From assembly GCA_024762995.1 (NCBI GenBank), contig JANTGI010000003.1, positions 1 through 64,000 on the forward strand: a stretch of DNA of 64,000 bases, written 5' to 3'. A program made the translations under genes and the position numbers. Positions within the stretch are counted from its first letter, which is position 1, and each line of letters begins with the position of its first letter. The notes below the pieces were generated by a model. The model had not been told where the DNA came from. It did no database searches and worked only from the letters and a program-made list of their open reading frames with translations. This document shows positions 16,195-18,703 of the stretch, in pieces. Source of the DNA: Saprospiraceae bacterium (GTDB lineage Bacteria; Bacteroidota; Bacteroidia; Chitinophagales; Saprospiraceae).

Positions 16195-16749
16195 ATGTCC
16201 AAATCGTTGATATTTTTCATCATGATTAGTTGCTTTGTATTGCCGATGAAGTCTTGGGGTCAAGCGTCGGCAGACTCCACTCTTGCTCTCTCTACGACAA
16301 GAAAGAAGGCTTTTCATCCCATTCCCAAACGGGCCTTGCTTTTTGGGTTAATTCCCGGCGGTGGTCAAGTGTACAACAGAAAGTATTGGAAAGTTCCCCT
16401 GGTTTATGCCGGATTGGGTTTTGCGACGTATATGATTATTGACAACAAAAAGAAATATAATCGCTACCAACAAGCCCGTATCTATAGGCTTGATGGAGAC
16501 TCAACTACTGTGGATGAATTTGCAGGCTTATATTCAGATGAAGCACTTTTCAAGATACGAGCCATTTATGACAAAAATGTCCAAAAGGCATACATTTGGA
16601 CGGGGGTCGTATATAGCCTGAGCATTATAGATGCCTTTGTGGATGCTCATTTAAGTAATTTTGACGTAAGTGACGACTTGAGTATTCGGTGGATGCCTAG
16701 CACGTTAGGGGGCACCGGATATGGACTGTCTATTGCTTTGGAGTTTTAG
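16195..16749 (+). CDS. DUF5683 membrane protein
   Basis: The 184-aa protein has an N-terminal signal (FFIMISCFVLPMKSWGQ) and a basic linker. The characteristic LLFGLIPGGGQVYNRKYWKVP segment of DUF5683 follows, then a hydrophobic helix and KKKYNRYQQAR. This is a small inner-membrane family common in Bacteroidota, with no defined function. The 3-base gap to the aminopeptidase argues for co-transcription. Confidence 0.88.
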   Translation: MSKSLIFFIMISCFVLPMKSWGQASADSTLALSTTRKKAFHPIPKRALLFGLIPGGGQVYNRKYWKVPLVYAGLGFATYMIIDNKKKYNRYQQARIYRLDGDSTTVDEFAGLYSDEALFKIRAIYDKNVQKAYIWTGVVYSLSIIDAFVDAHLSNFDVSDDLSIRWMPSTLGGTGYGLSIALEF

Positions 16750-16805: not shown

Positions 16806-16813
16806 TATCTTTG
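16806..16813 (+). promoter_or_regulatory. -7 promoter element for the NTF2/HhH fusion gene
   Basis: TATCTTTG lies 35 bp before the ATG. Confidence 0.6.
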
Positions 16814-16848: not shown

Positions 16849-17688
16849 ATGAGTATTAAAAAAAGACTTAGTAATCTGGACAAAATGGTCGTTGAAGGGA
16901 ATATCATCGACGCGTTTGACTTGTATTTCCATGACCAAGTTGTGACCCACAGCGATGCCGGGGATCGCTCCAAAAACAAAGCCCAAAAAAGAGAATGGTT
17001 GGTCAAGTTTTTTCAATTAATCCAAAAAGTGGATAAGATTGAATTGTATGGTCAGACCGTTACCGGAAATGTATCCCACTCTAAATTTTCTTTTCATTTT
17101 ACCACCACTTGGGGGGCTCAATTAGTCTGGAAAGAAATCATCCGACGCACTTGGAAAGATGACTTGGTCATCGATGAGTACTACTACGAAGGTGAACTGC
17201 CGGAAACCAAAAAAGAAGAAAAAACTCCTTCTCCCGCCAAAAAAGCCATCAAAAAAGCTGCACCTAAAAAGGTCAAAGAAGCGACACCATCTAAACCGGC
17301 GGCCAAAAAGACAACACCCAAAAAAGTAGTCGCTCAAAAAGTAGTCAAAAAAGCAGCCCCGACAAAATCACCCGCCAAAAAAGCTGCACCTAAAATTACC
17401 GCCAAGAAGGTAGTCAAAAAGGCCGCTCCTAAAAAACCGGATGATTTGAAAAAAATTGAAGGTATCGGCCCTAAAATTGCACAATTACTCACTGATGCCG
17501 GTATTTCTACTTTCGCTAAATTAGCCACTGCGAAGCAAGACAAACTAAAAGCTATTTTAGCTGCAGCCGGCAATCGTTATAAAATGCACAATCCGGCTAC
17601 TTGGCCTGAGCAAGCCAATCTTGCTAAGAACGGACAATGGGACGAATTGAAAAAATTGCAGGATAGACTTGATGGTGGTCGCCGATAG
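16849..17688 (+). CDS. NTF2/SnoaL-like domain fused to H1-like linker and HhH domain
   Basis: The 279-aa protein has three parts. Residues 1-115 look like a SnoaL/NTF2-like fold (conserved FDLYFHDQVVTHSDAG, W and HFTTTW strands). Residues 116-197 are a low-complexity basic linker of KKAAPKK-type repeats, like histone H1 tails. Residues 198-279 are a helix-hairpin-helix module (LKKIEGIGPKIAQLL) ending in a conserved NPATWPEQANLAKNGQWDEL segment. In Bacteroidota that last module is also found fused to ribosomal protein L21. The composition suggests nucleic-acid binding; a link between the NTF2-like part and DNA/RNA is inference. It has its own promoter and terminator. Confidence 0.85.
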   Translation: MSIKKRLSNLDKMVVEGNIIDAFDLYFHDQVVTHSDAGDRSKNKAQKREWLVKFFQLIQKVDKIELYGQTVTGNVSHSKFSFHFTTTWGAQLVWKEIIRRTWKDDLVIDEYYYEGELPETKKEEKTPSPAKKAIKKAAPKKVKEATPSKPAAKKTTPKKVVAQKVVKKAAPTKSPAKKAAPKITAKKVVKKAAPKKPDDLKKIEGIGPKIAQLLTDAGISTFAKLATAKQDKLKAILAAAGNRYKMHNPATWPEQANLAKNGQWDELKKLQDRLDGGRR

Positions 17689-17715: not shown

Positions 17716-17750
17716 AAAAACTCCGTCATCTTATGATGGAGTTTTTTTTT
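17716..17750 (+). terminator. Terminator of the NTF2/HhH fusion gene
   Basis: An AAAACTCC/TCAT hairpin around CTT is followed by nine T residues, 27 bp after the stop. Confidence 0.9.
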
Positions 17751-18178: not shown

Positions 18179-18703
18179 CTAACGTACCGCAAACTTTAAA
18201 ATCAATCGAGACTCGATAGTTTGGGGAGCGGCTCCATATAGTTGCAACCGGATTCGGCAATTAAAGTGATCCTTGAGCATAAACTCTTTTAAATCTGCTT
18301 CTTCGGAGACCAAGTCGATTTGGCTACCCGTTTTTTCCGGTACAGGGTCTCGATAATACGCCGGTAAACGCTTAATACTGCCATTTACTTCATCGTACAA
18401 CTCAACATCTATACTTTTAATAAAATCATACTCCACTCCGGTCGCATATACGGCGACCATACGCCCATTTTGCGGCAAAATACTCTCAATCGTAGCCGGA
18501 TCCACCTCATGAAAGGCAAACAAAGAATCGGAAAAAGTAAGGATGTCTTGTATCTCAAAATAGTGGGAGACAAACGGCCCTATCCCCGCATTTATCGTAA
18601 AATCAACGGGATACTCCATCTCAAATAAAAAGGCACGTTCATTGTTTTTGCGGCAAGAAACCAATAACAAACCCACAAAGAGTACTAGAAGTGATTTTTT
18701 CAT
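18179..18703 (-). CDS. Putative lipoprotein, unknown function
   Basis: The 174-aa product has a short basic start, a hydrophobic core and LLLVSC with the lipidated cysteine predicted at residue 17. The mature part is beta-rich (EMEYPVDFTINAG, RIRLQLYGAAPQ, RLILKFAVR) and resembles a small periplasmic beta-sandwich. I recognise no family. It lies 90 bp downstream of mazG on the same strand. Confidence 0.72.
   Translation of the reverse strand: MKKSLLVLFVGLLLVSCRKNNERAFLFEMEYPVDFTINAGIGPFVSHYFEIQDILTFSDSLFAFHEVDPATIESILPQNGRMVAVYATGVEYDFIKSIDVELYDEVNGSIKRLPAYYRDPVPEKTGSQIDLVSEEADLKEFMLKDHFNCRIRLQLYGAAPQTIESRLILKFAVR

Follow-up and report, generated by a model that had tools for sequence, protein, structure and literature searches.

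An NTF2-like protein with a lysine-rich linker and a promiscuous C-terminal HhH module in a Saprospiraceae bacterium

What might a SnoaL-type domain be doing on a histone-like arm that ends in a module also carried by ribosomal proteins? The question is raised by a gene within the window, here the whole analysed stretch of 64,000 nucleotides at the start of contig JANTGI010000003.1 (assembly GCA_024762995.1). An earlier note, made from the letters alone, had read the product as an NTF2/SnoaL-like domain joined to a histone-H1-like linker and an HhH module otherwise seen on ribosomal protein L21, a combination it did not recognize, and had suggested a nucleoid- or ribosome-associated ligand sensor. 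The analysis described here shows the fusion to be uncommon within an extensive, scarcely described group of proteins that share a promiscuous C-terminal HhH module.

The gene and the first two parts of its product

The features of the locus are collected in Table 1. The open reading frame appears to be a stand-alone gene, since the preceding gene on the same strand stops at 16749 and the next gene-like long frame downstream (18179-18703) lies on the opposite strand, both according to the ORF list. The region holds two sites for terminator-like hairpins against 1.7 in shuffled sequence, which is not above the shuffles. The product has a three-part architecture, with an NTF2-like domain, a lysine-rich linker and an HhH module, and no ribosomal protein domain rises above the Pfam cut-off anywhere in its 279 residues.

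Table 1. Features of the gene, its product and its flanks
Feature	Position	Strand	Remarks	Basis
Whole gene	16849..17688	+	279 aa plus stop, ATG start	ORF list, orthologues
NTF2/SnoaL-like domain, residues 1-118	16849..17202	+		AlphaFold2, Foldseek, VIA-align, profiles
Lysine-rich histone-H1-like disordered linker, residues 119-195	17203..17433	+		Composition, low pLDDT, orthologue variation
Shared C-terminal HhH module, residues 196-279	17434..17685	+		Alignment A1, carriers, AlphaFold2 helices of high pLDDT
Pfam HHH_5 match within module, residues 198-236	17440..17556	+		Pfam
Terminator-like hairpin with T-run, 3' of gene	17716..17746	+	14 pairs	
Candidate element TATCTTTG, possibly a Bacteroidota-type promoter element	16806..16813	+		By eye

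Structure prediction bears out the assignment of residues 1-115 to the NTF2/SnoaL fold. AlphaFold2, with a 52-row alignment, models residues 1-120 at a pLDDT of 90-98 in the element order H-H-E-H-E-E-E-E. The best PDB match of this part is 3hk4_C, a putative SnoaL-like polyketide cyclase (Foldseek, E 7.8e-9; target-normalised TM 0.83), and VIA-align superimposes 113 residues on 3hk4 with a Z of 17.6 at 2.0 A, while SnoaL-like proteins, limonene epoxide hydrolases, ketosteroid isomerases and designed NTF2 folds fill most of the first 50 Foldseek rows. The window's domain sequence taken alone matched no Pfam family; a profile built from 27 relatives matches 3hk4 by sequence (E 1.5e-12), with 11 of the 27 matching SnoaL_5 (best 1.1e-14) and 13 matching SnoaL_2 in Pfam. 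Membership of the NTF2-like/SnoaL superfamily is thus indicated by the predicted fold and, through the relatives, by the profile.

The linker is a lysine/alanine/proline-rich disordered tail of the histone H1-like kind, as the earlier note had it, with 35% K, 21% A, 13% P and a net charge of +23. Its pLDDT falls below 50 at residues 135-146 and 150-182, which is most of its length, and both sequence and length differ among orthologues. The HC2 family model in Pfam does not match the 279-residue protein, and the NCBIfam model hist_H1_lk_Burk gives 14.4 bits, below its cut-off of 80. The same genome encodes another KKAPAKK-rich protein (L007:1147-1941) that lacks the module and has a different C-terminal domain.

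Comparison of coding sequences indicates an intact gene kept by purifying selection within the genus. Among G000, G320 and G423 dN is 0.10-0.12 for the NTF2 part and 0.08-0.10 for the module, synonymous sites being at or near saturation among the three closest orthologues. In the same three, pN of the linker is 0.20-0.26 against 0.07-0.11 for the folded parts, about 2 to 3.5 times as high, a pattern that indicates constrained folded parts and a freer linker.

The C-terminal HhH module and its carriers

Pfam recognizes HHH_5 at 33.7 bits, above the cut-off of 27, and the module of about 84 residues extends past this 39-residue match to the C-terminus with a conserved tail, TWPxQAxLAxxGxWDELxxLQDxLDGG. 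Alignment A1, with 20 rows from different proteins, has 17 invariant columns; the window's module matches its profile over all 85 positions at E 3.3e-43, a value that is partly by construction as the window sequence is row 1 of A1, and independent single-sequence matches exist. The likeness could have arisen by chance from the low complexity of the KKAAPKK linker, but this was rejected, since the module can be aligned with the linker left out and is shared by ribosomal carriers whose linkers are acidic.

The module is predicted to be all helical, its AlphaFold2 pLDDT, averaged by block, being about 95-98 over residues 201-270 and 83 in the last block. A tandem-module model of another protein resembles HhH domains from Pol theta (Z 8.8), RadA (Z 7.4) and NusA AR2 (Z 6.6), values that may reflect no more than a common arrangement, with Foldseek E values above 0.5. 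When the module profile was compared by hhalign with six HhH segments, E. coli NusA AR2 came out best at 84.6% over 41 columns, followed by UvrC-like (53%), RuvA-like (50%), Pol IV-like (39%) and AR1 (21%) segments, and the end of the genome's own NusA reached 0.3%. This NusA (L297:1474-2718), a protein of 414 residues, ends by eye in a single HhH-like stretch. It shows no second acidic repeat like that of E. coli AR2, and its HhH-like end does not match the module.

In this genome the module is carried by five proteins: the NTF2 protein, bL27, bS16, a VEKIVEVPV-repeat protein (L005) and a coiled-coil protein that bears it twice (L004). The notion of an HhH module common to ribosomal proteins was sound, and the specific link to L21 holds for other Bacteroidota, where bL21 carriers occur; for this genome bL21 was rejected as a carrier, bL27 and bS16 being found instead. 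The earlier note overlooked how general this C-terminal unit is, both here and across the family.

The family, assigned by relatives, is Saprospiraceae, and the full protein is matched in 96 of 100 family genomes at E 0.001 or better. In five of the 96 (G315, G329, G350, G369, G388) even the best match is weak, and the other 91 have a best E below 1e-13. At 1e-6 the module profile finds 27 of 295 genomes of the class and 40 of 296 of the phylum, some of the matches being partial. Named relatives with the module are mostly Saprospiraceae, and Portibacter lacus, a cultivated relative, has a module locus (L212). Eight family genomes have 6 to 21 module matches each, most of which were read.

A census of all fetched loci, biased towards modules like the window's, gave 203 distinct carrier ORFs among the matches listed, and the module is C-terminal in every one, with 197 of the 203 frames ending no more than 15 residues after it and all within 22. 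Among these listed matches the carriers are 52 labelled 'TM', bS1 (29), bL27 (27), AMPK-beta-like (15), bL21 (15), other (14), bS16 (12), HU-like (10), NTF2 (6), bL17 (5), uS2 (5), P-domain (3), NrfD (3), bS6 (3), small basic protein (2) and phasin-like (2). Two of the 'other' carriers are ribosomal, bL19 (L257) and uL15 (L267), from MAGs titled Gammaproteobacteria and Gracilibacteria in which binning errors are possible, and ribosomal carriers make up 98 of the 203 among the matches listed, spread over nine ribosomal proteins. Pfam on representative carriers confirms S16, L27, L21, S2, L17, S6, L19, L15 and S1, as well as NrfD, P_proprotein, AMPK1_CBM, HC2, FAD_binding_5 and AMP-binding. The labels 'HU-like' and 'phasin-like' were given by eye: Pfam finds HHH_5 or DUF4332 only on L151 and L183, and NCBIfam matches to these two are confined to stretches within the linker and module or in low-complexity parts. 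The label 'TM' rests on hydropathy, and Pfam shows at least one of these rows, L188, to be an AMP-binding enzyme; the membrane carriers include membrane-anchored coiled coils.

Several observations accompany the census. Further occurrences, which may reflect binning errors, come from MAGs titled Gammaproteobacteria, Gracilibacteria, Myxococcota, Chloroflexi and Anaerolineales, on carriers that include L257 (bL19), L267 (uL15), L258 (bL27) and, by eye, the membrane proteins L250, L277 and L282. Module-bearing genes adjoin at L166, L170, L202, L204, L179, L231 and L245, a membrane-anchored coiled coil lying beside genes of the HU-like, P-domain or HC2-type histone-like kind, all of them ending in the module, in what looks like a conserved cluster. 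An AMPK-beta-like E-set domain followed by a lysine-rich linker and a basic module (L030, L031, L034, L039, L052, L139, L155, L172) repeats the plan of the window protein with another cargo domain; no AMPK-beta-like carrier was found in the window's own genome.

Inheritance of one module copy per carrier was rejected on a tree of 201 modules, in which carrier labels change 80 times, against a least possible 15 and a shuffled mean of 136. By this comparison of sequences the carriers cluster only partly, and well-supported branches force at least two changes for the NTF2 label; the tree rests on few columns and leaves many forks unresolved, and no number of fusion events is drawn from it.

The charge of the module follows its carrier for the most part, being acidic on ribosomal proteins and basic on other soluble carriers. 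Of 96 modules on seven ribosomal proteins, 90 are neutral or negative in net charge (mean -3.1), and a positive net charge was found for 29 of the 33 modules carried by NTF2, AMPK-beta-like, HU-like and phasin-like proteins (mean +4.7). These counts cover related sequences and do not form a phylogenetically independent comparison. In this genome the values are +6 for NTF2, -6 for bL27 and -4 for bS16. Nine genomes were compared, of which seven have both sorts of carrier, and the split holds in six of the seven and fails in G339, with two NTF2 modules at -3 and -1 and bL27 at +1.

Rarity of the NTF2 fusion and what the protein may do

The fusion of NTF2 part and module was found in four genomes of the genus and one of another genus, and the exact combination, which the earlier note had not recognized, is uncommon. 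Orthologues with both parts in the same genus occur in G320, G423 and G495. The upstream neighbour is the same gene in G320 and G423, and the G423 locus also retains a peptidase and the frame at 18179-18703; L205, identical to G423 over the NTF2-module gene and left out of the fusion count, also retains a MazG-like gene, and G495 has no shared neighbour within the captured flanks. G339, from the other genus, encodes two NTF2-module proteins (L061 and L194) with different linkers, that of L061 not being lysine-rich.

A widespread annotated NTF2-module family was rejected by the counts in class and family. The NTF2 part is present in 17 of 295 genomes of the class sample, where all frames except the window's own are 117-143 residues long, too short for the module, and in 66 of 298 family genomes. 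Both parts lie on five ORFs (L058, L029, L059, L060, L061) among 30 loci read, L029 included, and the module census supplied a sixth, L194. Most other NTF2 domains stand alone. In some copies a lysine-rich tail follows without the module (L066-L068), and in G542, of the same genus, the domain is followed by VEK-type repeats on a frame cut by the contig end, with no module in the sequenced part. Other copies have long C-terminal regions that by eye are P-domain-like (L063, L064, L076), and L298 has an NTF2-like domain followed by VEKIVEK-type repeats in place of the module.

Given the composition of the linker and the other carriers of the module, association with the nucleoid or the ribosome may reasonably be supposed, as the earlier note did; its further suggestion of a ligand sensor is speculative. 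The reading that we prefer, tentatively and as possible rather than probable, is that the NTF2-like domain is a tethered cargo delivered to nucleoid and/or ribosomes by the arm and the HhH docking module. Such tethering is suggested by the pairing of an H1-like arm with a basic copy of a module that ribosomal, membrane and histone-like proteins also carry. The N-terminal NTF2/SnoaL-type domain would be the cargo for these nucleic-acid-rich bodies, and might bind a small ligand or a protein; the disordered arm would bind DNA or RNA electrostatically, by analogy with PhaF and AlgP; and the basic module would dock to a common partner, which could be either nucleic acid or the acidic copies carried by bL27 and bS16. 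If the NTF2 part is dimeric, the protein would be bivalent. Against this reading stand the acidic NTF2 modules of G339 and the linker of L061, which show that the basic pattern is not universal for this architecture, together with the many purposes that HhH domains serve, the relatedness of the sequences in the charge counts and the genomes in which one module carrier alone was found at E 1e-6.

Two other roles for the module have to be weighed. Heterotypic docking, HhH to HhH, in which basic modules on NTF2, AMPK-beta-like and other proteins would bind acidic ones on ribosomal and membrane proteins and make the NTF2 domain a ribosome-docked accessory, somewhat like the binding of RNA polymerase alpha-CTD by NusA AR2, seems doubtful to us. 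It draws on the acidic/basic split, on the top hhalign rank of NusA AR2, a protein-docking domain, and on a model in which two tandem modules form one chain (pTM 0.73). Some genomes have a single module carrier at E 1e-6 (G062 with bL21 and G115 with bL27, for example), which means that a partner carrier is sometimes missing, and Pol theta and RadA exceed NusA AR2 in structural Z; a docking role argued from the likeness to AR2 is plausible and no more.

Pol theta and RadA, together with Y-family polymerases, provide the HhH domains that are the nearest solved folds, and with HHH_5 membership and the adjoining lysine-rich arm of the window protein they favour a plain nucleic-acid-binding module, which would contact rRNA or mRNA on ribosomal proteins and DNA on the NTF2 protein. 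The net acidic or neutral charge of nearly all ribosomal-protein modules argues against it, and we think it rather unlikely. That the NTF2 domain is an epoxide-hydrolase-like or isomerase-like enzyme whose tail serves only solubility or loose placement is very unlikely: its fold is close to limonene epoxide hydrolases and ketosteroid isomerases, but G17, W102 and E110 are the sole invariant residues across the 27 relatives, and a module under purifying selection is contrary to an inert tail.

Beyond the tethered cargo that we prefer for this one protein, a cell-wide docking code can be imagined, and we consider it unlikely. Acidic modules at the ribosome surface and on many membrane proteins would bind the basic ones of NTF2-, AMPK-beta-, HU-like and phasin-like proteins, or both kinds would bind a single shared partner, for which the analogy of NusA AR2 makes the HhH domain of RNA polymerase alpha-CTD a possible candidate. 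Ribosomes, chromosome, membrane complexes and storage bodies would thereby be physically linked, the NTF2 protein being one plug-in of the code.

The set of carriers is of greater interest than the single NTF2 protein. One unit of 84 residues sits on nine ribosomal proteins, membrane coiled coils and histone-like proteins, mostly in one family, with related forms also in Alphaproteobacteria, and this great variety of carriers suggests one common partner. Once identified, that partner would show how such bacteria organize ribosomes, chromosome and membranes, and the NTF2 protein offers a compact carrier for studying the module away from the ribosome.

Comparison with known systems

The open-access literature searched yielded no description of the module on ribosomal proteins and no paper on the NCBIfam 'S2 sunset domain variant', whose match hardly reaches into the module. 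Linker and module together match C-terminal stretches of the NCBIfam long forms of L21 (PRK12278), S2 (PRK12311), NuoE (PRK12373) and phasin PhaH, at E 4.5e-12 to 9.5e-7 and all far under the curated cut-offs; the N-terminal domains of these long forms are unrelated to the NTF2 part.

A homologous domain is carried by protein-O of the Dinoroseobacter shibae RC-LH1 complex (8yy9 chain O), which the module profile matches at E 2.5e-8. In the accessible text of PMC12079452 the C-terminal domain is described as shared with NuoE, ATP synthase subunit E and an endonuclease, as not visible in the map and as of unknown function. As in the window protein, and as at the C-terminus of Rhodobacterales NuoE, the domain follows a long flexible linker; the N-terminal part of protein-O is transmembrane and not NTF2-like.

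According to the accessible part of PMC6614801, NusA AR2 is a dual HhH domain that docks proteins, with alpha-CTD and SuhB as its partners. AR2 is likewise a C-terminal HhH docking domain, and by profile it is the nearest of the six segments; the similarity spans 41 of 85 columns, AR2 is an acidic repeat where the window copy, at +6, is basic, and the module, unlike AR2, has an extra conserved helical tail.

For the NTF2 part the closest counterpart is the SnoaL-like Mlr7391 (3hk4), which has the same fold and is matched by the profile, but is a single-domain chain of 136 residues, titled putative, without the HhH module. For the overall plan the comparison is with PhaF and AlgP, whose KPAA-type lysine-rich tails bind DNA and position granules according to the accessible portions of PMC3574117 and PMC9239181. 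The HhH module goes unmentioned in those portions, and the N-terminal domains of PhaF and AlgP are described there as helical or granule-binding, where that of the window protein is NTF2-like; the shared plan, as far as these portions describe it, is a cargo-associated N-terminal domain followed by a lysine-rich, H1-like arm.
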